Shown piece after piece: positions 28,405-63,458 of a stretch of DNA of 64,000 nucleotides. The translations under genes were made by a program, and so were the position numbers. The notes under the pieces are model-generated. The model saw nothing but the letters and a program-made list of their open reading frames with translations, was not told the DNA's origin and ran no database searches. Location of the stretch: positions 62,001-126,000 of the forward strand of contig CP038108.1 of assembly GCA_004519485.1 (NCBI GenBank), read 5' to 3'. Positions within the stretch are counted from its first letter, which is position 1. Each line of letters begins with the position of its first letter. This stretch comes from Nannochloropsis oceanica. Its lineage: Eukaryota > Sar > Eustigmatophyceae > Eustigmatales > Monodopsidaceae.

Positions 28405-31400
28405 ATGGACGGAGAGCAGCAATCACAGCCGTCGGAGGGGGGGCGGCAGCAAGGGCAGAGGGGTCAGGAGCAGCTAGAGGAAGGGGGAGCAGGACGCGGC
28501 CGAGGACGAGAACTTGGATACAGTGGATTTTGGGAAACCTTAGACCAGCCATCATTTAGCATACCAAGCCGGAGTAGCAGCGTGCCTCCTTTAGTGGGTG
28601 GCAGCGGCAGGTATGAAGAAGGAAGGGAAGTGTACGTAGACATTTATTTGAAATGCGTATGGGGAGACTGCAGATGGAGGGAATGACTGTCTGTAGAATC
28701 TTTATCCACCAATTTGTATATATATATATCCCCGGCATAGGGATGGCATGGGAAACGTGAGTGGGCGTTATTCGTCCTCTCGAGGCGGAGATGCCTTTGC
28801 CGGCGGGGGAAGAAAAGGAGGAGGCGAAGGAGGCGAAGGAGGCTTGTACAGTGGTAGCAGTAACAGTAGCAGCAGCGGCAGCGGAAGGCACGCGTTTCAG
28901 GTAAGGAGATGCTTGTCTTCCAGGAGTTAGATGAGAGCCATCTAGGAGCACTCATTGTCCACCACATTTCTTCCCACCTTCCTCTTTCCTTCCTTCCCTC
29001 CCTCCCTCCCTCCCTCTTTTAAAGCTCGGCTGGCATGACGATACCGTACTTCCTCCCTCGCTTCCTCCACCCCACCTTTCCGCTGCCGTCTCATCGTCCT
29101 TTCCTTCCAGCATTTTGAGAGTCGGGCTGGGGGACTGGCCCCAGGGCAACCTCACAGCCACGCACTCGACAAGGGGCAGCAGCACCACGAGCAGCAGCAG
29201 AGGTGGTATACCCTTCCTCCATCCCTCCCTCTCCACATCCTCGATATCTGAGCAGGCATGGCCCTGTCCAGGAGAAGGAGGAGGGGAAGGAGGAGGGGGA
29301 GGAGGGGGTGGGGGGGGCAAGAGATCAGGAGCGGGGACAACACGAGCGGTCTTACCCCACCCGGCTCCCCCCCTCTCGGTCTCTTCCTCCTCCTCGACCT
29401 CCTACTCCCGCCCTTTCCCACTGCCTCCACCACTACCCGCGGGCCCGCACACTGCTGGGGTGGGAAGAGGGAGAGGAGAGGGATGGAGAGGGGGCGAAGG
29501 CGCGCCAAGAGGACACCCTCCCTATATGTCCTCCTCCCCTCCCTCCTCATCGTCCTCCTCAGCCTCAGCCACATCCGCTTCACCTTCGTTCCTATCCACG
29601 GCAGGAGGAGGGGGGAGGGGGGGGAGGCGAAAATGTGGAGGGCCTGTGTCATTGTACGATATTCTAGTGGCGTCCGAAGCGGCTAGAAGGTGAGAGGGGA
29701 TGGAGAGGGGGAGGGAGGAAGGAAGGAAGGAAGGAAGGAAGGAAGGGAGGGATTTTTGTCGTGGGGAAATATGGAGGGAAGATTCATTTCAGCCTAGGCA
29801 ATTCACCCTCTATCCCTCCCTCCTTCCCTTCCTCCCTCCCATCCGACTCGCCGACCCGCTCATGATAGCGGGCAGAACCACCACCATCAGCAGCAGCACC
29901 AGCAGCAGCAGCACCAGCGCCAGCAGCGCCACGGGCCAGGCAGCTCTGCTTGTGGGAAAGGCGGTGGAGGAGGACGGGGGGAAGGAGGAGGAGGAGGAGG
30001 AGGAGGAGGAGCAGGAGGAGGAGGAGGAAGAGGAGGAGGAGGAGGAGGAGGAAGAGGAGGAGGAGGAGGAGGAGGAAGAGGAGGAGGAGGAGGAGGAGGA
30101 AGAGGAGGAGGAGGGACACTGACGACAGGAGGGAGGGACGGAGTGGGGGGTACGATGACTCCTTTATCCCATTACATGAGCATTATAGGTCTGGGCCCTC
30201 CCAAGAGAAAGAAGCTGACGACGCTCAAGAAGAAGATATTGATGGTGAGGCTGTCCCCTCCGTCCCTCCCTCCCCCCCTCCCTCCCTCGCCCTTCTTCAT
30301 CCATTTCCCTCATCATTTTCCTCCGAGCTTTTGGACGGCCAGATCACGCATTCTCCATACTTTCCCTCCCTCCCTCCCTCCCTCCCTCCCTCCCTCCCTA
30401 TTTCCTTCCTTCCATTATTACCTCAGAATCGGCTACAAGACTTTACTCAGCAAATGATGCAACGACAGCAGCAGCAACAACAACAACAACAAAAACAACA
30501 ACAACAACAACAACAACAACAGCAGCAGCAGCAGCAGCAGCAGCAAGGGCACCATTCATCCTCCCTCTCCTCATTTTCTGGCGGAGGAGGGAGAGAGGGA
30601 GAGAGGGAGAGAGGGAGGGAGGGAGGGACGACCGTGATTGTCTTTCACGATGCCGTCTCTGAGGAACAATTAGAGGACAAGGAAGAGCTTGCAGAGCTAC
30701 AGGTGCACAGAAAGAAGGAGGGAGGGAGGGAGGGATGGAGGGAGGAAAGTAGTGGGGGAAGAAGGTTTAAGAGGGAGGGATACGGGAAGTTTGAGTGCAT
30801 GTACTTCGGTGTCGTTGCGCTCAACCCTACCCCCCTCCTTCCTTCCTCCCTTCCTCCCTCCCTCCGTCAGGCCAATATCGCCCATGTCTGTCGCCCATTC
30901 GGTCGTCTCCAGTCTCTCTATATCCCCCCCCACGAGGCCCATGATGCCGGGCTCATTTTCGTCGCCTATTCCACCCCCAACGAAGCGCTCGCGGGTACGT
31001 TTTAACGGCTTGCTTTCCCTCTCCCTCCCCTTTCATCTGTCAATCTATCAATCTATCTCTCCTATCTCCCTCTCTCTCTCTCTTGCTGCTGACATCCTTC
31101 CTTCCTTCCCTCCTTCCCTCCCTCCCTCCCTCCCTCTCTCCCTCCCTCCCTCCTTAGCCGTTGCCGGTCTCGCCGGACGGATGTTGGGAGGGGATCCGCT
31201 GCAGGTGACACTCTGTCCTCAGGCCCAGGAGGGGAGGGAGGGAGCGATGGCGCTTCCAAGTGACATGCTCGAGGAAAGGGAGGAGGACCAGGACGAGAAG
31301 GAGGTAAGGAGGGAGGGAGATGTCCAGGCCCTCTCTCTCGCTCTGTCTCCCGCTTCCTCATTTCACCCACCTCCCTCCCTCCCTCCCTCCCTCCCTCCCT

Positions 31401-34400
31401 CCCTCCACCACCGCAACAGCCCTATCAGCACCAGCACCAGCATCATCATCATCAGCACCCTCCCCAAGCCCTTCCCTCCCTCCCTCCCTCCCTCCCTCCG
31501 TGCTGCGCCGCTTCCGTCGTCCTCCACGCGTTCGCCGGGACCGGTTTCAGCGCCGGAGGAGGAGGAGGAGGAGGAGGAGGGGGAGGGGGAGGAAGCGCAG
31601 GAGGGAGGGGGAGTGGCTTCTCCTCCCCTGCCTCCCTCGCCTACTCATCGGCGTCGGTGCTCCTGGCACAGATGGAGGAGGAGGAGCTGATCGAGATAGG
31701 TCTCAACGTGCAGACACTCGCGGAACTTTTCGGGACGGTGCGTCCTCCCTCCCTCCCTCCCTCCCTCCCTCCTTCGGTCGGTGGGAGATGGAACCATCCT
31801 TCCCATCTCCATGACCGCGGCTCTTTAACTTTCCTTCTTTCCCTCCCTCCCTCCCTCCCTCCCTCCCTATCTCTCTCCCAGGTCCTCTCTGTTCGCGTCG
31901 TCCAAGAGCGGGAGGTTCACAAACATGTCTTCCCGTCCCATCCCTGCCCCAACACTGTACGTCCCTCCCTCACTCCCTCCCTCTCTCCCTCCCTCCCTCC
32001 CTCCCTCCCTCCCTCCACCCACTTCTCCCTCCCTCCCTCCCTCCCTCCCTCCCTCCCTCCCTCCCTCCCTCCCTCCCTCCCTCCCTCCCTCCCTCCCTCC
32101 CTCCCTCCCTCCACCCACTTCTCCCTCCCTCCCTCCCTCCCTCCCTCCCTCCCTCCCTCCCTCCCTCCCTCCCTCCCTCCACCCACTTCTCCCTCCCTCC
32201 CTCCCTCCCTCCCTCCCTCCCTCCCTCCCTCCCTCCCTCCTCCCTCCCTACGCAGGATGAACCACGGATCCCGCCGGATCAAGTGCGTTTGCCAGGGGAC
32301 GTAGTCGTCGTATTCTCCTCCCATCATGAGGCGTGTGCGGCCGTCGCTGGCCTGGGGGGGATGATCGTGCAAGGTACGGCCCTCCCTCCCTCCCTCCTTC
32401 CCTCCTTCCCTCCTTCCCTCCCTCTCTCCCTCACACCCCCTCCCTCTTTCCTTTTGTTCGATTTTTTCTCTGATTTTTCTTTCGTTCAATCTTCTTCTTA
32501 CTCTCTCTCTCTGCCTCTCCCTTCCCCCCTCCCTCCCTCCCTCCCTCCTCCTCCAGGCACGCCTCTCCGTGTCTCTGGGCCCTCCTCCTCCATCGGTCTC
32601 GTCACCCCCCCCTCCCTCCTCCCCCCCCTCCTCTCCTCCTTCCCTTCCTCCTCCCCGCCCTCGCCAGCACCAGCCGAGCCGGGAAGTAAGGGAGAAGGAC
32701 GGCCTCCTCCCTCCTCCTCCTCCTCCGATGCCTCTTCCTTTCCTTCTTTCTCTTCGAGAGAGGGAGGGAGGGAGGGAGGGAGGGAGGGAGGGGGAGGTCG
32801 CCTAGCCCCTCCAGAGGCCTCATGGCCAGGTCGGGCGTTCTCTGATGGAGCAGGGGATACGTTGGTAGGGAGGAAGGGAAGGAGGGAGGGAGGGAATAAG
32901 GGAGGGAGAGAGGGAGGGAGGGAAGGAGGGAGGGAGGGGAGGGGGGTTTGCTTGTGTGTGGGCCAACCGTCCACTCGTCTGATTGTTTTTTCCCCTCTCT
33001 CAGCCTCCTCCTTCCCCTCCCTCCCTCCTCCCTCCCTCCCTCGCTTCCTTCCTTCCTCGGCCGTCTCTCCCCCCCCCTTTCACCCCCCTTCCCTCCCTCT
33101 TCCCTCCCTCCCTCCCTCTCTTCTTCGGCCTTCTTTTTGTCGCAGGTTTGTCTGCCCGGCTTGGTGGACGCAGGCAGTTTAAGCGACCCGGATGAGCGGG
33201 AGGAGATCTTGAGGGACCTCGTGGACCTATGTCAGGTAGATAGGGAGAGTGGGAGGGAGGGAGGGAGGGAGAGAAGGGAGTTCTTGTGTGTTTCTCTACT
33301 GTGATCCCATCCTTGCTCACTGTCTTGTGTGTTTCCATATTGTTTCGGGGTTGATCGTTTATATTTCTCATTCGTTCATTTATCATTTATTCATTACATA
33401 TCATTTATTCCTTATTTATCATTTATTCATAATTTATCATTTATTCACTATTTATCTATTCATCGGGCGATGCCTCGTGTGCAGGCATACGGGCGCGTCG
33501 TGGCCCTGCGTGTCAACACCAGCGGTTGTGCCCCTCCCTCCTTCCCTCCCTCCTCCTCGCCCTCCTTCATGCCCTCCTCCGTCTCCTCTGCTTCCCTTAT
33601 CCTGGAATTAGGCTCGGTACTGGTGAGGTATAGCACGGCAGCAGAGGCTGCGAGGGCAGTGTTGGGCCTCCAGGCACGCACCGTTCAGGGGCAGAGAGTG
33701 AGGGCCTTCCTGGTAAGGAAGGGCCGAGGGAGGAGGGGAGGGAGGGATGGAGGGTGTTTCAAGAATGGAACAACGCATGGTTCCTCGTCCTCATCCGCCT
33801 CACCCTCCCCCCCTTCCTCCCTTCCTCCCTCCCTTCAGTGGCGTCCTCAACAGCTAAATATGGGCCAGGCATCCCTCCCCCCCTCCCTTCATCCCTCCCT
33901 CCCCGCCTCCCTCTCTGCCGCCTCCTCCGTCTCCTCTTCCTCCTCCACCACCACCTTCTCTCACCAGCAGGACCACCAGCATCAGCAGCAGCTGGAGGAG
34001 GAACGGCCGCACTCTTTCCCTCCTTACGGTCACAGCACTTTCCCCCCCTCCCTTCCCTCCCTCCCTGAGCCCCCTCTACCCTCGTCTTCCCCCTCTTCCC
34101 AGCCCTCCTTCCCTCCCTCCTCCTCCTCCTCCTCCTCCTCTACCATCCGTTTCCCGCCAAAATACCGAGAAGCGTCTCACCTGCCCAAGCTGCGCGGAGG
34201 CGGGAGAGAGCAACACGGCGAGGGGGAGGGAGGGAGGGAGGGAGGGGAGGAACCTCCGTCCCGGACGCATATGACCGTGCGAGGAGATGCAGTTCTGTGC
34301 ACGGAGGAATTGGAGGAGGACATCAAGGTGGGGCGGGAGGGAAGGAGGGAGGGAGGAAGGGAGGAAGGGGAGCGGGAGGACGGAATGCACGGCACTTGTA

Positions 34401-35188
34401 AATGGCAGGACACCCTCATATCTTTCCCTCTTTCCATCCCTCCTTCCCTCCTTGTACAGGAGCTCATCCGTTTGCTCATGTCCTTTCAAGAGAGGGCACG
34501 ACTGAAGGATACAGCCAAGGGGAAGAAAGTTCGACGCATGGTCTTTGGGCTCAGAGAGGTACTTCCCTCCTTCCCTCCCTCCCTCCCTCCCTCCCTCCTT
34601 CCCTCCTTCCCCCCCTCCTTCTCTACGGCCCTCTTTTCGTCCCTCGATCGTTCAGACACACACGCTCTATTCCTTCTCTCTTCCTTTCGTCGTGCGTGGC
34701 TTTCTCCCCTTTCATGCCAGCAGCTGCCATGCCCCTGACAGAACAATTTTCTCACCGCGCGCCGCCATCCCTCCCTCCCTCCTTTCCTCGCTTCTCCCTC
34801 CCTTAGGTCATGCGCGGCATCCGCAGCCGCAAGATCCAATTTGTCGTTATTGCCCCGGATATAGAACGCTCTCCCGCCCTCGACCAGGAAATAGCCGAGA
34901 TCAGGTCCCTCCCTCCCTCCCTCCCTCCCTCCCTCCCTTCCAGTCTCTTCGTCTTGTCGGACCACTGATCCTTTTGACCTAATGAACAAACCATCACCGC
35001 CGTAGACTCACCCCTCCCCTCCCTCCCTCCCTTCCTCCCTCCCTCCCTCAGGTCCTCGGCGGCGGAAAAACGACGTTCCGGTCGTCTTCGGTTTGTCGGG
35101 CCGGCGGCTGGGCAAGTGTTTGGGGAAGAGTGTGAGGATCACGGTGGTGGGCGTGCTCTCGGCCGAAGGGGCATTCGAATCGATTTAG
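28405..35188 (+). CDS. SECISBP2: RRM/UHM-like modules joined to an SBP2-type L7Ae domain
   Basis: The 3' exons match SECIS-binding protein 2, which brings the selenocysteine-specific elongation machinery to SECIS RNA. Exons 33839-34327, 34460-34558, 34807-34904 and 35052-35188 carry TEELEEDIKELIRLLMSFQER, KKVRRMVFGLREV, KIQFVVIAPDIER, VPVVFGLSGRRLGK and VRITVVGVLSAEGAF, the L7Ae-like core. Upstream and in the same phase lie three RRM-like modules, two of them resembling the UHM of U2AF65: exons 30427-30702, 30871-30994, 31158-31303; then 31420-31737, 31882-31956, 32256-32373, 32557-32864; then 33146-33235 and 33485-33712. Early exons (28405-28610, 28741-28900, 29111-29202, about 29256-29689, 29869-30244) code Gly/Gln/His-rich sequence; the frame through 29256-29689 is unresolved. 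The last exon needs one extra base near 35066-35070 to keep the conserved frame. Two adjacent genes remain possible, but no stop or intergenic space separates the parts. Confidence 0.6.
29985..30115 (+). repeat. (GGA)n trinucleotide tract inside an exon
   Basis: About 130 bases of GGA/GAG triplets with a few GAA interruptions. The exon phases of the host gene read it as polyglycine with scattered Arg; the other frames would give polyglutamate (ending in a stop) or polyarginine. Confidence 0.8.
31957..32255 (+). repeat. CCCT-array intron with three CACCCACTTCT spacers
   Basis: This whole intron of the RRM-SBP2 gene is a (CCCT)n array interrupted three times (near 32017, 32112 and 32179) by the same spacer, CCACCCACTTCT. 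The array is therefore a higher-order tandem repeat with units of unequal length, as produced by slippage or unequal exchange. Confidence 0.8.
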
Positions 35189-37795
35189 GTTGGGAGGGAG
35201 GGAGGGAGGGAGGGTAGGTAGGAGGGAGGTAGGGAGGGGGAGGGGGAGGGAGGGAGGGAGTTTTGTTAGTGTGTTTTGTCGGTTCGTTTCTTTTGTTCAG
35301 TTGGTTCTTATGTCTGTTTCCTTTCTTTCTTTCGTTCTTTCATTGGTAATTTTCGAGGGGTTGACTTGGACGTTTGGGGACAAGAGCCAGTGAGAGGGTT
35401 TAATCTTAGACAAAGGAATTTCTGCAGCGCCCATTACTTTATTGGCTTTCAAAATGTCTCATATTTTTCAGTCTTTTAAGTCTTCCTTCCTCTCTCCCTC
35501 TCTCCCTTTCTCCCTGGACCTTCAGAGAGGTGAACCGCAAAGCACGCGAGCTCCTTGCTCTACACGCACAGCGACAGGGAAGGCTGGAGGGAGGGAGCGA
35601 TGTTGGGATGCACAATGCCACCCCCGCCCTTCCTTTCTTTCAGTCATCCTCCTCCTCCTCCTCCTCCTCCGCTTCCTCCCCTCCTCCTTCCCGGCCCTTG
35701 ACCGACATCGCGGGACACCCAAATTCCTCCTTTCCCAGGCTCGAGCACCTCCTGGGAGGGCCATCCTCCCTCATAGGCGACAAGGACGAAAAGAGAGGAA
35801 GAGCCACCAAGGGCGACAGGGGCGGCAGCGATGGAGGCAGCGGCAGCATGTGCCTTCTTTCTTCTCTATCGACGTATACCTCCTCTGATCCTCCCATCCC
35901 TCCTTCGTTGCTTTCAGTGCCTTTGCCGTCGACGTTGCTTCAGGACCAACAGCGCCGAGAACTGCCACAGCAGTACTACCACCACCACCACCATCAGCAG
36001 CAGCAGGAGCAGGCGTTGGCCGGGGATTTGGGGTCTCTTGAAGACGGAGGGTCGGGGAGAGAAAAGGGAATGGGAGGGCAAAGAGAAGGAGGAGGGGGAG
36101 GATGGAGAGGAGGAGGAGGAGGAGGAGGAGGATGGGAAGGCTGAGAAGTGGCCTTATAGGTGCGTCGTCTTGTCAGCCCATCTTGCTTAATGCATGCATT
36201 TGTTGAATAAGCACGTAATGGTAGATAAGCTTGAGGGCAGAAAGGATGAGTGGGGATGGGAGCCTCTGGGGAAGAAAAAGTGGAGTGCGGCACTTTTCGT
36301 CGGTTAGAGTATGCTTTAAGTTTCATAATCATGTCTCATCTTGTCAGGGGTGGGGGAATAGTAGAGATCGTGGGCTGGCTCTAGCATTAAATGTACATGT
36401 ATTTTTGATTGTTTTCATTTCATCTCCAGCTCTTTTTTTTTGTATCTTTGAAAAGCCCTCGAAGAGGGGAAAGAGGAGTCAGCGCATGTTCAATTGATTT
36501 GTAGTCATTTTTCCAGTGTTTCCCAAAATTTAGAGAGTAGATTTAAAAAGGTCCATGGCATGATGCATGGCATGGAATCGCAAAGTTTAGATTTTAGCAA
36601 TGTTTTAGCATTTTCAAAGGGAGGGGGGGCGTGGCATGACACGTCAATGATTTTGATTGTTTGGTTGACAAAGATGACTCGGCGCATCACGAATAGGACT
36701 CACTAGTGGACTCTCTTCAAGACAATTCTATGTCCGCTGGAGAAGTGCAAGGGAAAATGAAATCGGGCGTAAATACATGGCCGACATAGACACGGCAGCC
36801 AAAGCAAGCACGCAAGATGGAGCCCTTTCACTTCTTCATTTTTGTCTCCCCCCACGCAGCAGAATATCCTTGTGTAATTCCCCCTTTTTTATACTCCATG
36901 TCCATCTTTCACAAAAACAAGTGCGGTAACAATCGAAATACCGCGTTTTACGAGTCTATTTTTTGGATGTGCGTGCGGGGAGGTGTTATTGTGCCTGTAG
37001 CTGCTTTCCAAATTTAAAGTGCTTCGGATGTTCACGTCAAGTTTTTGGAAGAACCACGAGAAGAATGGGAGCCACATTGCCTTGATACTCGTTTTTGAAT
37101 CCAATGAATGCACGAAAGATCAGTAGACAGGTTTCGCCTAATTGCGACTATACAGGCAGACCCATACACAAGCAGGCAGGCATAAGTCTATATATCCTCC
37201 AAAGCACAAATGATTGGACAAGTAAGGGACGCGGGAAGTGTGAATGGTTAGTGAGAGAGCACAAAAAGGAATGTGTGTGCCTTCAAGACATCAGGCAGAG
37301 CAGAGACATGCACAACTCTTTTAACAAAGTGGCACCACCACCATCTGCGCAGATACTTATAAAAACAACGTGAAACAATTAATGTTGGATTGAGAGCGAT
37401 GAGAAGAGTGAACGCCCAAGGAGAAGGGGATAGACAAGAGAGAAGGGAGAATTATAAGGATATTTCACCGTTCAGTAACTTCGGGAAAGAGAGCAGCATT
37501 ATGAAAGAAGTGTTTCATGCATCGATTGTCTTCCCTTAGTTTGATTTGTCCTGCCCAAAACGACTTTCCGTCTATTCTTGTTCCAAAACATTTCTTGTCC
37601 CCCCCCCCCTATTTCTGCTTTTTGATAACAACTGTAAACTACACACACTACCGTCGCTTTTCATAATTGTTTCGCCTCCTCAGCTGTCTGAGGGAAGAGA
37701 TATTTTATTCCCTGCCCCACTTTTCCCCATGCTATATCTGTCCGAGGCAAGCAATGCATGTAATTCCTTCCACCCCTTATTGCTTCTTCGTCTCT
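35189..37795. other. Gene-poor region with possible extra 3' exon of the SBP2-like gene
   Basis: After a GGGA tract (35190-35262), an open frame at about 35527-36144 begins NRKARELLALHAQRQGRLE, which resembles the helix that follows the L7Ae domain in SBP2, and continues into Ser-, Gln/His- and Gly-rich sequence. No GT-AG junction joins it in frame with the stop at 35186-35188. From 36150 to 37795 the DNA is AT-richer and I see no gene. Confidence 0.4.
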
Positions 37796-40700
37796 CTACA
37801 TGATCCACCCCTGCAGTCCATTCATAGGACGCAAGGAAGTCAAGTCATCGGCCAAAAAGTCCATCGGGTATTGCACGAGATGCCCCTGCAACCGACCCAA
37901 CCACTTGAGATTTTCTTTTTCCATGTCCCGGCGTGCCTGACTGCCCATGCTACGTTCGCCGTCCTCTAATCCACCCGCTTGACTTTCTTCGTCCTCTTCG
38001 TTGAGAAGAGCTTCCATAAGCGCTTCCTCTTCTTCAGCAGCCCGTTCATCCCCGAGCACTGACTCGACAAAATCTCGTGTCGTCTGCAAGGTCACACCAT
38101 CTACCGTCACTTGCTTCAAGGCTCCCAGGCTCCGGATCGTGTTAGCAGGTAGGGCTTGGGGGAAAACATGCGCAAGGATTGCCGTATTCTTGCGTGCCAC
38201 ATTGCGAAGATACTCCCAGGTAGACTGTGACGTGGGGTCGAGGAGGGGCGCGTAGACATCCTCTGGTGCCGGCGCGTCTTCCAGCAATTCTTCTGCCTGG
38301 TCCTCCATCAATGCAGCTTCCACGGCTCGATGCTGTATGTACTCATCGAGGAGCCCAACATGCTCTCCCCACAGACGAAGACGCAGAGAACGCGCAAATG
38401 TCCCTGCCTCATAGTCGCACTTGTTCATAAGACCTGGCTCGCATATTGTGTCTTCCAAAACCACAGCGACTTCGCTGTCCCGAGAACCCAACAGGGAGCG
38501 CTCATTCAAAGCCGCAGATCCGAGAATGGCGTATCGGTCGTCAGAGACGAGCAATCGACTATTGACAAAGATCTGTTCAGTCATAAGAAGCGGGAGCTGC
38601 TGCTTGGTGGCATCGCCATTCAGACGGCTGAAGGTCCGGAGGCCGAAGAACTGAAGGTAGTCTTCGGGGCGTGACACCATTTGTGCCAGGCGTGTCCACA
38701 AGGCCTTGACCGAGGTCAGCTGGTAGTAGAGAGCAGAGGTCAGCATGGTGCTGGTAGCGCCGTGCAGACTACTATCGTACACAGGAAGGAGGGGCAGCAA
38801 GATTATGACGCGAAAAGCCTCGTGGCGGTCATGCGCCTGGACGATACGGTTCAAGAGGGCTTCGGCCAGCCGGTTCGTCACGTCCGTGTCCCCGCGCAGG
38901 CCACTGATGAAGCTGGGATTTTCGAAATACAAGAAGTGCTCTGCTGTCGAAATCACTTGCTCGTACGCCTCCAGTATGCTGCTTTGAGGCTCGCGCAGAC
39001 CACCGCTCCAACCGCCCATACTTCGGACCACGCGACAGTGACAGCTTGTTAGCGGCCCCATGGACACCTCCTCTTCCTCTTCTTCCTCGAGCTCTCGAAT
39101 GTAAAGCGCCCGACGCAGGCGCAAATACTGGTACACACGCTGCTGTTGCTCTCGATGCTGCCGATGAGCAGCGGCGCGCTGTTGTGCTGCTTCTGCCATT
39201 AAAAGGACCTGCTGCTTGGACGGAGAGAACGGCACTGTGGACGAAGACGACGACTGCACCCCCCAACCACCTTTGACATCCTTAATGTCGTTGTGCAGAA
39301 AAGATGCTTGGGTGCTGGTGTTACTGCTCTTACGGTCTTGGCTCGCATGCGAAACGTCTTCATATAGTTCTTCGTTCATTGGCGCCTGGGGCATCGGGGA
39401 GAGGGCCGAGGGCTGATGTTTATGTTGCCGTTCACGCCCACCGGTACGCCGCCGAGAGATGGGGGCAAGAGGCGTCTCGATCAGATTTTGGAACTGGAGG
39501 AGCTCTGATTGTGTCACAATGTTGGCATCATGCTGCAACTCCATTAACCGTCGTCGCACACGCTCCTCGCGCGGCCGCAACCATTCCATCACCTTTCTGG
39601 ATGTATCCGCTTCCACGGCATCAAAGACATCCGTCGGAGGTGGCCCAATTTCGTCGTCGGTGGATGGCAAAGGAAGGGCCACGGAAGAGCCGGCGCCAAA
39701 CACGAGGCGGGCGACAGTCTTGCGGGTCATAATGTCACTCACACCCGTGTGTACCCGTCCCTGTCCTTGTGTTGGCCCTGCCGATGTTGAGTATCGCAGG
39801 TCGCCTGCCTCCGGATCCACCCGCCACATGTGCTGCGGAAACAAGGCGGGCGGTACGGCATAAGGGTACTCTTCCTCTCGAAGCTGTTTGTTGGGGATTG
39901 CTTGACGTGCCATTTGCTCCCGAGCCCGCCCCAGATTCCACCGATTCACAAAGTGCCAACAAACATCGCGGCAACCGCCCCCTGTTAGTGCAACAGTGGC
40001 TGTGTGCTGCGGCAGGCGGGGCACACAGCCGCGGTCGTGACCCGGGAGGTCTGCCGATGTGTGGGCAAGCTCAACTTGGCACATGTCCTTGATCGCCGGG
40101 TTGTGGTAGTCCCGCCCACACCAGACGGGATGCCGGGCCCTTGTCTCTGCTCTATTCGGCAATCCGCTGTCGGTACAAGCGGCCCCGAGACCTCGCTCTC
40201 GAGTCCGTCGCCTCAGTGCGACGGTCACGTCATCCTTGAGCACATGGTGTGGTGTGTCGTATTTGCCCAAGCCAAAAGACAAGCCCGAACCGACGAAAAC
40301 CAGGTTTTGGTCTACGCACAAGAGGCTCTCATTGTGGGTCCAGGCCTGAGGGAACGTTGGATTGCCGGCCAACAAAACGTGCAGCCGGCCCTCGTGTGCC
40401 AAGTTCATGAGCCGTGCCTGGGTCTGCCGACTGTTCCAGCGCATGTTCCCACCCCAAGGCTCCTGAAAGATGAGGACGTAGACTTGAACCCCTTCTTGTG
40501 CCTTGGCTTCCAAAACACGATCCAGGCGGGAGTGAGGGTAACGGTGTGGCGGACGCAACAGATACAAATCTGGGCAAAGCCACTGGGCGGCCAAGAAAAT
40601 GGAATGTTTGGCACCACGCATAGCGGCCTCGCAGCTGCGATAGGCCGCGTCCCCGTCCACGAACCACTGCGCGGCGCTCTGTGAGCTCTCGTCCAGGTAC

Positions 40701-42253
40701 GACATGGGCAAGGACCGAGAAAACTCGAAACGATTTTGTTCCACCCAGGCAGATTGCGCCAGAACAGTGGTCAAGGCGGCGGCCCATTGTCGGTGGTCGA
40801 GAATTGACGCGAAGGCGAGCTCAAAGTGCCAGAGAGCGTTGCGGAGGACGAGACGCATGGGCTCTTCAAAAACGGAGGCTTGCAACATGGTGCCCGTATC
40901 GAACAGGAGAACGGCCTCGGGCAGTGGAGTCCTCGTGGTGGCAATGGTAGATTTATTGCCACTGCTGCTACGGTGGCTACTGCTACTCTTGGTGGTGGTG
41001 GTGTAGTGCGCATCCATGCTCCCGTCCTTGTAAAAGGCCAAGAAGGAGTGTTTGAGGACAGCCCATCCATGATTCAGCTTGGTAGCAGAGGAAGGAAGGC
41101 GCCGCCTCTCCTGTTCCCAGCCTAAGCCGAGGGCGGATGCTAAGAGCCCACCTGTCCCACCCTTATACGACCGCAAGCCCTCCAAATCAAGCCCCCTTTC
41201 GTCCTCATGCCATGCCTCCCCCGCGGGCTCATCCTCTCTCGACCACCATACGCAGCTGAGTACCCGTCCTTCTCGGTGCGACGGGCCTTGGGCCATATCA
41301 AAGGTATGCGGGGAGACCTCTAGAAACTCCAGTAGCTTGGGACAGTGGCGATTGACCACGTCATCGAGCACAGCCCGGAGGTAATGCTCATATACAGTGC
41401 GTTGGTGGGCCACCGAGGCCGCATCCGTTTTTTCGGCCTGTTCCTTGGTCAGAGGGCAACCGATGTCCTTCATGTGTGGGATGGGCATGGCCTTGGAGGA
41501 ACAGGAGAGGGAAGTCCGATGCGAGAGGTAGGCCCATCGATGCCTAGGATCTCCCTCTGCATCCTCTCGTCGTCGCTGGAGGCGGCTGTTTCGCCGACGC
41601 CAACGTGCCCGCTCTCGGTCCATCTCCCTGACTGTAGCATCATCGTACTCGAGCGAGAGAGGAGGGACCGACTCCTTTGCATACTCATCATCTGTTTCTC
41701 CATCCGCCTCCTTGGCCGACGAAAGCGGAGCCGAAGTTGCTCGTCGCTGAACGTGTCTGTCGGACGGAGACCGCTCCTGTCCACGGCCCCTCCGACGGCT
41801 GGGTCGAGCTGCATTCGCCGCAACGCCATCCTCTTCCTGCTCCACTTCTTCCTCTTCGGCCTCTTCCTCCGTGAAATCGTGGGAGTGGGACCACCCATCC
41901 ACGTAGTCGTCATCCTTAGAACACGTCCGCCATCGATACCCCCGTCGCACGCACCGCGCGCCGTTCCTCCTAGCGGGTGTCAACGGTGGGATGAGTTTCC
42001 GGAAGAAAAAGGCCTTCCAGCGCCATTTTTTGAGGGCCTTAGCTAGGTCTTTGAGCTGGGCGTAGTGCACATGCACATGCCATGTCCATTCGTTGTGCTG
42101 GAGACGGATGGTATGGAGGACAGTCTCTTCTCTGCTGTTGCCACTGAGGATGTCTTTAGCGCTTCTGCCGCTGCCACCTCGCACAGGAACCACGGTGGAC
42201 TTGATGACGTGGAGCAGCGGTGGGGTATCATGCAGGGGGTTGTTGGCCTTCAT
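37796..42253 (-). CDS. PX/PH-type phospholipase D homologue lacking HKD catalytic residues
   Basis: A single exon of 1,485 residues, intronless among intron-rich neighbours. The start at 42253 was chosen because a PX-like segment (HNEWTWHVHVHYAQLKDLAKAL) follows soon after; the frame is open to an ATG at 42685. A degenerate PH-like region (LNHGWAVLKHSFLAFYKDG ... HFELAFASILDHRQWAAAL) precedes the PLD core. Core landmarks are present: WFVDGDAAYRSCEAAMRGAK, FLAAQWLCPDLYLLRP, EPWGGNMRWNSRQTQARL, YFENPSFISG, LGSAALNERSLLGSRDSEVA. In both HKD motifs the nucleophile region is changed: motif 1 is WTHNESLLCVD (family WSHHEKLxVxD; His to Asn near residue 641, Lys to Ser) and motif 2 is VNSRLLVSD (family VHSKLxIxD; His to Asn near residue 1231, Lys to Arg). 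The fold is kept but phosphodiesterase activity is not expected. Possible roles are lipid binding or scaffolding (inference). Confidence 0.9.
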   Translation of the reverse strand: MKANNPLHDTPPLLHVIKSTVVPVRGGSGRSAKDILSGNSREETVLHTIRLQHNEWTWHVHVHYAQLKDLAKALKKWRWKAFFFRKLIPPLTPARRNGARCVRRGYRWRTCSKDDDYVDGWSHSHDFTEEEAEEEEVEQEEDGVAANAARPSRRRGRGQERSPSDRHVQRRATSAPLSSAKEADGETDDEYAKESVPPLSLEYDDATVREMDRERARWRRRNSRLQRRREDAEGDPRHRWAYLSHRTSLSCSSKAMPIPHMKDIGCPLTKEQAEKTDAASVAHQRTVYEHYLRAVLDDVVNRHCPKLLEFLEVSPHTFDMAQGPSHREGRVLSCVWWSREDEPAGEAWHEDERGLDLEGLRSYKGGTGGLLASALGLGWEQERRRLPSSATKLNHGWAVLKHSFLAFYKDGSMDAHYTTTTKSSSSHRSSSGNKSTIATTRTPLPEAVLLFDTGTMLQASVFEEPMRLVLRNALWHFELAFASILDHRQWAAALTTVLAQSAWVEQNRFEFSRSLPMSYLDESSQSAAQWFVDGDAAYRSCEAAMRGAKHSIFLAAQWLCPDLYLLRPPHRYPHSRLDRVLEAKAQEGVQVYVLIFQEPWGGNMRWNSRQTQARLMNLAHEGRLHVLLAGNPTFPQAWTHNESLLCVDQNLVFVGSGLSFGLGKYDTPHHVLKDDVTVALRRRTRERGLGAACTDSGLPNRAETRARHPVWCGRDYHNPAIKDMCQVELAHTSADLPGHDRGCVPRLPQHTATVALTGGGCRDVCWHFVNRWNLGRAREQMARQAIPNKQLREEEYPYAVPPALFPQHMWRVDPEAGDLRYSTSAGPTQGQGRVHTGVSDIMTRKTVARLVFGAGSSVALPLPSTDDEIGPPPTDVFDAVEADTSRKVMEWLRPREERVRRRLMELQHDANIVTQSELLQFQNLIETPLAPISRRRTGGRERQHKHQPSALSPMPQAPMNEELYEDVSHASQDRKSSNTSTQASFLHNDIKDVKGGWGVQSSSSSTVPFSPSKQQVLLMAEAAQQRAAAHRQHREQQQRVYQYLRLRRALYIRELEEEEEEEVSMGPLTSCHCRVVRSMGGWSGGLREPQSSILEAYEQVISTAEHFLYFENPSFISGLRGDTDVTNRLAEALLNRIVQAHDRHEAFRVIILLPLLPVYDSSLHGATSTMLTSALYYQLTSVKALWTRLAQMVSRPEDYLQFFGLRTFSRLNGDATKQQLPLLMTEQIFVNSRLLVSDDRYAILGSAALNERSLLGSRDSEVAVVLEDTICEPGLMNKCDYEAGTFARSLRLRLWGEHVGLLDEYIQHRAVEAALMEDQAEELLEDAPAPEDVYAPLLDPTSQSTWEYLRNVARKNTAILAHVFPQALPANTIRSLGALKQVTVDGVTLQTTRDFVESVLGDERAAEEEEALMEALLNEEDEESQAGGLEDGERSMGSQARRDMEKENLKWLGRLQGHLVQYPMDFLADDLTSLRPMNGLQGWIM

Positions 42254-42875
42254 AGCTTCCCGCCTGTGAGTGAGTGTGTAATTGACGATGATGATGAGTA
42301 TGGGTGTTGTTTGAAAAGAGAAAGTGATAGCTTTCAGGATTGGGAAGAAGCGGGTGAAGATCGCACAGATTAGTGAAGAAGGAGACGAGCGAATGGCAGT
42401 GATATGTGTAGAACAGATAAAATCGCATGACCGAAAGGGTGATATCGGCGCAGATGGGGAGCAAGTCCCTTTTGGGGAATAACGAGGGTGCCTCCCCAGT
42501 GAGATGGGCCCCTGCAAGCAACGGCTCGTCAACGGTTTTCTGGGAGGTTGCATGCATACTCCGCGCTGGGCGCGTGCTCTCTCGTAAGGCCAAGCACGTT
42601 CCCTTTTGGACGGAGATTTGGAGTTTGTGTTCCTTTCTCCAACCAACCTATTCAGCTTGAATGTCTGCGCTGGGTTACTCACCATTCACTACCATTCCAG
42701 AAGCACGGATGGTCCAAACACCATCACTGCCAACGCTGTCGTCGGCCCGCCTGCCGCCCTTGCCGCAAGTTATAGAGGAGGGAGAAGAAAATCAATACAG
42801 AAAATGACAACAGACAAATGTACCAGAGTGGCGGCATCATGTAATCTTTCCAAGGCCAGCATCGCCTCTTTCGCA
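42254..42875. other. Upstream region of the PLD-like gene
   Basis: No gene supported. The minus-strand frame continues open to 42685, so part of this may be 5' UTR or an N-terminal extension of the PLD-like protein. The ATG at 42685 is followed at once by GTGAGT, a donor-like sequence. Confidence 0.35.
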
Positions 42876-61771: not shown

Positions 61772-63458
61772 ATGTACGGCATCTCCAATCTTCAGGATTT
61801 GGTGGGCTTGGTCAAGGAGAAGGGGAGTGAGTTGGCAGCTGAAGGGAAACTCTTCGCAGACCGCCTCTCCCTGGACCGACTCCAGGAGGAAGGTGGGGGA
61901 CAAGCAGCTAGAGCAGGCGGAGGGAAAAGCAGCGGCACATCGGCAGTCTCTCAAGAGGTAGGGTCACTTACATCTAAGTCTTGCGCTGTTATGCTTCTGC
62001 CTAGACCACAAGACATTCATAATCCTCACACCTCCCTCCCCCCCTTCCTCCCCCCCTCTCTCCCCTCTTGCCTTTCTCAAACAGCAGAACTTTCTCCCTC
62101 CACGACCGGACATCTACTCCGCGGCCGCCGTAGCACGAGCCCGTGAAATGAACGTGATTGCCGCTGCTCCCTCCCGCCCTTCCCCCCTTCCTTCCTCTCT
62201 TCCTCCAGCCCGCCCTGCACCCCTCCCTCCTCCTTCCATCGCGGCGGAGGAGGGGAAGCGAGGGAACGGGAACGCGGGAGGGAGGTCGGGGAGGAGGGAG
62301 GAGGAGGATAATGAGGACGAAAACGATCCCATCATGGCGGCTATTCGAGGAGGGAGGGAGGGAGGGAGGAAGGGAGGGAGGGAGGAGGAGGAGGAGGAGG
62401 AGGTGGACGTCGAGGCGGCAGTGGCCGAATCCCTGGCGTTCCTGAACAAGAAGCAGCCGGCAGCAGGGGCAGGAGTATCACGAGGAGGAGGAGGAGGAGG
62501 AGGAGGAGGAAGAGGAGGAGGAGAAGAAGAAGGAGGGAAATGGGAGGGAGGAAAGGGTGGGGTGGGTGAGTGGGCGGGGAGGGTGAGGAGTGAGTTCTGG
62601 GGCACCGTGGGCAAGGCGATGGGACAGCCATGGGGAGGAGGAGGGGGAGGAGGAGGGGGAGGGGGAGGAGGAGGAGGAGGGGGAGGGAAAGGGAATGAGG
62701 GAGGAGGGAAGTGGGGGCATGTGAATGATGGTGGCGGTGGAGGAGGGAGAGGAGCAGCAGCAGCAGGGGAGGTGGAAGTAGTCAGGATACAGGGACGTGA
62801 GGTTCTCACAGAGGAAGAGGTAAGTGTCATCCTCCCTCCCTCCCTCCCTGCCTTCTCCCCTCCTTCGACACTATCCAATTTGAAACCATCCCTCCTTCCC
62901 TCCTTCCCTCCATCCCTCCCTCCCTCCTTCCCTCCTTCCCTCCTTCCTTCCTTCCCTCCCTCAGCGTCGACACCTTGCCGCCCTCCAAGGAGGGCACCAC
63001 GGCGGCTTCTTTACTTCCCTCTTCGGTTTCACAGGGGCAGGAGGAGGAGGAGGTGGAGGAGGAGGGAGCTCGGCGGCTTTTTTCGTTCTTCCCACCTCGT
63101 CCTCGTCCTCGACCTCGGGTAGGCAAGTGATGCGGCCGGTGCCGATGCGAGGGACTGTGGGAGCTGGAGCAGGGAGTCGCCTTCGATTGGGCTGGAAAAT
63201 GCGAGGTAGGGAAGGAGGGAGAATGGAGGGTCGAAGGGAGGGAGGAGGGAAGTGGGAAGGGGGGGAGGGAGGAAAGACATATGTTATCTTTACACATAAT
63301 TGCTTTACTGAGTCATTTTTCCTCGCTCCCGCTCCCCCCTTTTTAATCCCTCTACCCCTCCTTTCTCCTTTAATCCCTTTTTCTCATCGTCGGTAGTGGT
63401 CATGCTGGTGATGGGTGCGCTCATTATCTGGTGGGTAGCTTTCAAGAAGGAGGAATAG
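61772..63458 (+). CDS. Predicted tail-anchored membrane protein, unknown family
   Basis: Four exons in phase (61772-61957, 62085-62819, 62965-63118, 63397-63458) give 378 residues. The N-terminus MYGISNLQDLVGLVKEKGSE is amphipathic and likely helical. A short conserved-looking piece (QNFLPPRPDIYSAAAVARARE) follows, then long Gly/Glu-rich low-complexity segments with acidic clusters (EEDNEDENDPIMAAI, DVEAAVAESLAFLNKK). The C-terminus is a single hydrophobic helix (VVMLVMGALIIWWVAF) ending in KKEE, so the protein is probably tail-anchored in the ER or Golgi with the bulk in the cytosol. The KKEE tail does not place the lysines at -3 and -4 from the end in the classical way. I recognise no family; golgin- or SNARE-like roles are possible but unsupported. 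Confidence 0.65.
62635..62695 (+). repeat. (GGA)n tract coding polyglycine
   Basis: About 60 bases of GGA/GGG triplets within the second exon of the tail-anchored protein gene, read as polyglycine. Confidence 0.7.

Follow-up and report, generated by a model that had tools for sequence, protein, structure and literature searches.

The window analysed here, a stretch of 64,000 nucleotides of Nannochloropsis oceanica (positions 62,001 to 126,000 of CP038108.1; our contig C11), in all likelihood contains a single gene for the SECIS (selenocysteine insertion sequence)-binding protein SBP2, in which three RRM modules of the UHM type separate the SID core motif from the L7Ae-type RNA-binding domain (RBD). 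When the genome (29.26 Mb in 32 sequences) was searched with the RBD core, this locus alone was found, and it is thus the only SBP2 gene detected. The reading is carried by one open frame through the exons, by SBP2-like sequence on both flanks of the modules, by the similarity of the modules to UHMs, and by the selenocysteine machinery and probable selenoprotein gene that this genome also contains. The features of the gene, in window coordinates, are as follows.

28405-28610 and 28741-28900, + strand: possible 5′ exons with an ATG start, of low complexity, open and mutually in phase; membership provisional
29643..29689, + strand: closing stretch of a possible third exon (PVSLYDILVASEAAR), with frame and residual phase compatible with 29869
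29869-30244, 30427-30702, 30871-30994, 31158-31303, 31420-31737, 31882-31956 and 32256-32373, + strand: exons 1-7 of the 13-exon frame
32557-32864, 33146-33235, 33485-33712, 33839-34327, 34460-34558 and 34807-34904, + strand: exons 8-13 of the 13-exon frame
30200..30244, + strand: SBP2 SID core motif (PKRKKLTTLKKKILM), aligned to residues 524-547 of the SBP2 of PDB 7zjw
30628..31222, + strand: UHM-type RRM module 1 (exons 30427-30702, 30871-30994 and 31158-31303)
31510..32579, + strand: UHM-type RRM module 2 (exons 31420-31737, 31882-31956, 32256-32373 and 32557-32864)
32856..33859, + strand: UHM-type RRM module 3 (exons 32557-32864, 33146-33235, 33485-33712 and 33839-34327)
33713..33838, + strand: intron of 126 bases separating the UHM part from the linker that leads to the RBD, a stop-free multiple of three
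34265..34904, + strand: first part of the SBP2 RBD (exons 33839-34327, 34460-34558 and 34807-34904)
35052..35188, + strand: second part of the SBP2 RBD, in which the frame shifts twice, behind the A5 run (35066) and behind the G4 run (35168)
35526..36144, + strand: probable last exon (REVNRKARELLALH...), with a stop at 36144; its first residues carry the alignment through to SBP2 residue 762

Gene structure and reading frame

Spliced together, the thirteen exons between 29869 and 34904 give 2745 nt with no stop codon in one frame, against 11 and 26 stops in the other two, and all 12 introns between them are of the GT-AG type with a purine at donor position +3. Markov sequences of four orders, 2000 per order, served as controls, and none of them kept the given frame, or any other, open over the 13 exons. 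A first-pass annotation of this DNA had described these junctions as in phase and stop-free and the two parts of the gene as joined by an intron of only 126 bases, and both descriptions hold. That intron and the one at 34328-34459 (132 bases, likewise a multiple of three) contain no stop codon, so that an open reading frame (ORF) of 477 codons at 33305-34738 continues unspliced through both; a separate upstream protein would therefore find no stop there. Six of the 12 introns of this gene are multiples of three in length and several are stop-free, and CCCT-type repeats are abundant on the coding strand of its introns (31957-32255 and others).

The ends of the gene are less firmly drawn. The exons at 28405-28900 are included provisionally because more than one splice path leads from their ATG (28405) to 29869: 354 preserve the frame under the limits tried. 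At the other end, the ORF at 35410-36141 has no Pfam match.

The SID core, the RBD and the modules between them

In the alignment, PKRKKLTTLKKKILM at 30200-30244 pairs with PKAKKPTSLKKIILK of SBP2. When 473,178 residues were translated (with overlapping loci counted repeatedly), this segment was the top match to the 24-residue SBP2 piece, and none of 5000 shuffles of the segment matched its score. The spliced protein gives a SID score of 47 within the 192 residues that precede module 1 and of 24 elsewhere; no shuffle of the 192 residues reached 47 in 20,000 attempts. The SID core is reported to correspond to residues 517-543 of human SBP2 and to be conserved across eukaryotes, the SID itself being unique to SBP proteins (PMC2746813). 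Since the SID core match precedes the modules, these appear to lie inside SBP2, in the linker between SID and RBD, rather than forming an N-terminal fusion. The fusion proposed in the first-pass annotation thus stands in so far as modules and SBP2 domain share one frame, and is replaced by an apparent insertion downstream of the SID core.

From the SID core match to the start of the RBD piece there are 704 residues, which hold the three modules and constitute the main departure from SBP2/SECISBP2, with which the gene otherwise shares a SID core motif upstream and an L7Ae RBD downstream. The stretch at the end of the possible third exon (29643-29689) resembles the QLDL motif found in the SID and may represent it; phmmer gave no match there. 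No FRDY motif was seen by eye ahead of the RBD in the predicted protein, a further difference from SBP2. In one study these accessory motifs are described as sporadic in unicellular species, human SBP2 is given a SID at 408-545 and an RBD at 623-784, and the SID and RBD of rat SBP2 are said to function even though physically separated, the intervening sequence being degenerate (PMC2746813); on that account an insert in the linker should be tolerated.

The best match in the PDB to the first part of the RBD is the SBP2 of 7zjw (residues 637-701, E-value 2e-9), a protein of 854 residues that we take, by its numbering, to be human; the next best match has an E-value of 0.024. Pfam L7Ae scores 25.0 bits with the exon piece alone (cut-off 22.1) and 20.3 bits, below the cut-off, in a 960-residue protein, and the second half of the domain (Pfam positions 56-89) is found in the frame 35006-35185 at 18.3 bits, also below the cut-off. 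The reading frame of the RBD is not intact in the assembly, as it breaks near 35066 and 35168. When a single base is left out of AAAAA (35066) and another out of GGGG (35168), SBP2 residues 637-762 are aligned with an E-value of 4.6e-20 (next best 0.0026) and one 3-residue gap, and the alignment runs into the exon at 35526. The SBP2-type L7Ae core assigned earlier to the 3′ exons is therefore confirmed, whereas the in-phase end once placed at 35188 is not correct, the frame being broken beyond 34904. Two single-base excesses, both in homopolymers, indicate sequence error, and an assembly error is the likeliest cause of the breaks. The RBD piece found no relatives in a viral contig collection (18 pattern matches) or in a prokaryote genome contig collection (395 pattern matches).

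A profile search finds an RRM in the upstream exons, as the first-pass annotation had anticipated. Module 1 matches Pfam RRM_1 with an E-value of 6.4e-8 in the whole protein and passes the cut-off of 20.7 bits by itself (23.8 bits), while modules 2 and 3 fall below it (12.9 and 14.6 bits). In the PDB, module 1 matches poly(A)-binding protein (E-value 9e-5) and the U2AF65 UHM (0.00027), and the top match of module 3 is the U2AF65 UHM (0.005); module 3 also matches the U2AF65 of this genome by BLASTP (6e-8 in a single comparison). Against an hhalign profile built from the UHMs of that U2AF65 (C23) and of a paralogue on C6, modules 1 and 3 each reach 97 % and module 2 reaches 5.9 %, rising to 96 % once modules 1 and 3 join the profile; in each of four tests, none of 100 shuffled controls was as good. 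The first strand of module 2, at 31510, was placed by eye, its profile match beginning at about 31672. Of the three RRM-like modules first described, two as UHMs, all three are indeed of RRM type, and all three look UHM-like, module 2 being the weakest.

Like the UHM of U2AF65, the modules retain an acidic first helix and a G-x-[IV]-x-V-x-[FY] strand in the alignment. They differ from it in the RxF motif, the mark of ligand-binding UHMs, which serves ULM binding: this is present in none of the three, its place being taken by GRML, GGMI and ARTV, whereas the same position reads NRQF in the U2AF65 of this genome and GRSF in the C6 paralogue. Canonical ULM binding is therefore not expected. The RNP1-like strands also look degenerate by eye, so that neither the reading of SECIS RNA nor canonical splicing-factor binding is supported by the sequence, and the suggestion that an RRM platform reads SECIS elements or splicing complexes finds no backing here.

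A further difference from U2AF65 is the presence of three UHM-type copies in one protein, in place of an RS domain with two classical RRMs and a UHM. The U2AF65 gene of this genome is a separate one (C23:436221-437264) with an RS-rich start; it matches positions 171-510 of a 510-position profile at 302.5 bits, just short of the curated cut-off of 310.3. The modules are accordingly not the genome's own U2AF65. When modules 1 and 3 were used as a genome query, five of the eight matches were to this gene and the others were to the U2AF-type loci on C6 (E-value 0.001) and C23 (0.006) and to C1 (0.02), which rejects a close duplicate of these two modules elsewhere. SECp43/TRNAU1AP, a two-RRM protein associated with tRNA-Sec, also places RRM domains within selenoprotein synthesis, although it is a protein of its own, has RRMs of the classical kind and lacks an L7Ae domain. 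No SBP2 with an RRM or UHM was found in the open-access literature, though such an architecture may be known elsewhere.

Selenocysteine machinery and candidate selenoproteins

SBP2 co-occurs in this genome with tRNA-Sec, eEFSec, SepSecS and probable selenoprotein genes. Two tRNA-Sec genes with the anticodon UCA lie in tandem on the minus strand at C18:642369-642628 (68.4 bits each), being the two matches above the cut-off among nine. The best PDB match of the eEFSec gene is a solved eEFSec (5.5e-59); this gene (C1:328000-334000, minus strand) has long low-complexity stretches after its GTPase domain. Two further candidate loci, which we take to be EF1A and GTPBP1, were rejected as eEFSec. SepSecS is represented by a gene scoring 496.6 bits and PSTK by a similar gene at 92.4 bits, under its cut-off. 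The SPS-like exons score 70.1 bits at best, also under the cut-off, and have cysteine in CGGCGSK; the gene, at C9:1079303-1080496 and upstream, reads MRCGGCGSK, the Cys form, a sequence that typifies fusions of SelD with an NADH dehydrogenase-like domain.

A gene on the minus strand of C2 (about 1183000-1185500), which we take to be SELENOT from the human sequence, matches Pfam Rdx at the cut-off (22.6 bits) and reads YCTS-TGA-G, followed by an intron and GYRG, with the in-frame TGA at the CxxU selenocysteine position of SELENOT and one base from the inferred exon-exon junction. A custom pattern scan of its 3′ flank gave a form-2-like SECIS candidate hairpin 0.27 kb past the stop. The hairpin folds moderately better than shuffled sequences (z -1.76, 13 of 200 as good), and hits as good numbered 2 of 2432 in a 128 kb window background and 10 of 147 at a laxer cut-off. 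On the same contig, an animal-type thioredoxin reductase (C2:193949-195760, minus strand, 524.1 bits) aligns to TrxR1 (1h6v) through Cys497 and then ends GGC-TGA-GCG-TAA. Animal thioredoxin reductases end in GC-Sec-G, and this enzyme, to judge from its codons, probably carries a penultimate selenocysteine. The flanks of the two genes gave 13 weak matches with cmscan and no SECIS. Two GPX-type genes (C16:386231 and C3:1099235) and a SELENOW-like gene on C13 were rejected as selenoproteins, as each reads cysteine at the active site.

No selenoprotein is recorded for the Eustigmatophyceae in a 2020 survey (PMC7539508). The present genome, with its selenocysteine machinery and a SELENOT-like gene containing a TGA, contradicts that reported lack.

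Two observations lie outside these subjects. A single open frame of 1629 codons occupies 37799-42685 of the window on the minus strand, with a weak PLD-like match (E-value 0.00012, 22.4 bits, below the Pfam cut-off of 27), and two of the 32 sequences, of 38,068 and 117,556 bases, look like the mitochondrion and the plastid.

Alternative readings and proposed working

Several observations weigh against a single functional SBP2 gene of this form. The SID motif is short, was chosen for testing after it had been noticed, and scores 1.7 bits by HMMER/phmmer, non-significant alone; phmmer with the SID piece by itself gave no hits. Module 2 is convincing solely through a profile that contains modules 1 and 3. 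The donor at 34905 is GTC and differs from those of the other 12 introns, and both frame breaks in the RBD, if real, would kill the protein. No homologous locus in another species was found in the two prokaryote and virus collections scanned. Of the companions named in the first-pass annotation, tRNA-Sec and eEFSec are present, while SECIS is represented by a candidate from the pattern scan alone: Rfam SECIS_1 had no match over the whole genome at E-values up to 1, and the pattern scan found no SECIS in the 1245 nt downstream of the thioredoxin reductase gene. Finally, the region 33485-34558, which links the modules to the RBD, is of low complexity. Among Markov sequences, 3-3.5 % at orders 2, 3 and 5 (0.2 % at order 1) keep the given frame open across it, and 9-11 % at orders 2, 3 and 5 keep some frame open; taken alone, this open frame is weak evidence for a single gene. 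Its exon 33839-34327 contains in-frame ATGs, and an internal start such as that near 33860 could give a separate short SBP2.

Two adjacent genes misread as one, a UHM-repeat protein and a short SBP2 starting near 33.86 or 34.27 kb, would make use of these ATGs and of a low-complexity link whose openness, by itself, is an event of about 3 %, and SBP2 is reported to be without the long N-terminal extension in green algae, slime moulds and most protostomes (PMC2746813). This arrangement is nevertheless unlikely: there is no stop between the parts even with the introns retained, the exon phases are consistent throughout, and the SID core lies beyond the UHM modules, so that the short SBP2 would be without its SID. 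One gene is very probably real.

The breaks near 35066 and 35168, and a C-terminal helix that is unreadable unless bases are skipped, are what a decaying SBP2 pseudogene with two real frameshifts would show, which would match the loss of selenoproteins in Nannochloropsis as published (PMC7539508). We regard decay as very unlikely, however, as each break is a single extra homopolymer base, SBP2-like sequence persists for about 33 codons past the first break and past the second into the next exon, and the genome retains two tRNA-Sec genes, eEFSec, SepSecS and a SELENOT-like gene with a TGA, the frames being long and open wherever they were read. An SBP2 transcript is, moreover, named among those up-regulated in a Nannochloropsis mutant in a transcriptome paper (PMC7885382). 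The most improbable of the readings supposes neither error nor decay: a donor at 34943 (exon end 34942) would be spliced in frame to 35052, adding a short proline-serine loop and ending the protein at 35188 with the last L7Ae helix absent. This splice does read open through PVVFGLSGRRLGKCLGKSVRITVVGVLSAEG to a stop, but it replaces SSAAE, which is gap-free in the SBP2 alignment, it loses the helix encoded from 35526, and its donor is also GTC.

For a single SBP2 gene with inserted modules, the working can be proposed by analogy with animal SBP2. The L7Ae domain would grip the SECIS kink-turn, and the SID would reinforce SECIS binding and assist eEFSec and the ribosome. The modules have neither RxF nor typical RNP residues, and their most likely role, inferred with low confidence, is that of a protein-binding scaffold within the linker between SID and RBD; this would position the SID or hold a partner such as eEFSec, the ribosome, or a spliceosome or exon-junction protein. 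A more specific idea, which we consider rather doubtful, is that the UHM array couples SBP2 to the splicing machinery or the exon-junction complex, so that selenoprotein mRNAs would be tagged while still nuclear and nonsense-mediated decay would not act on their UGA codons; beside this may be set the position of the SELENOT-like UGA, one base from an inferred junction.

SBP2 is the factor that converts UGA from a stop to a selenocysteine codon. A natural SBP2 in which a scaffold of splicing-factor type stands between SID and RBD would be a testable system for the cooperation of these two domains and for the escape of selenoprotein mRNAs from decay, and the conflict with the published absence of eustigmatophyte selenoproteins bears on the use of selenium in a farmed alga.

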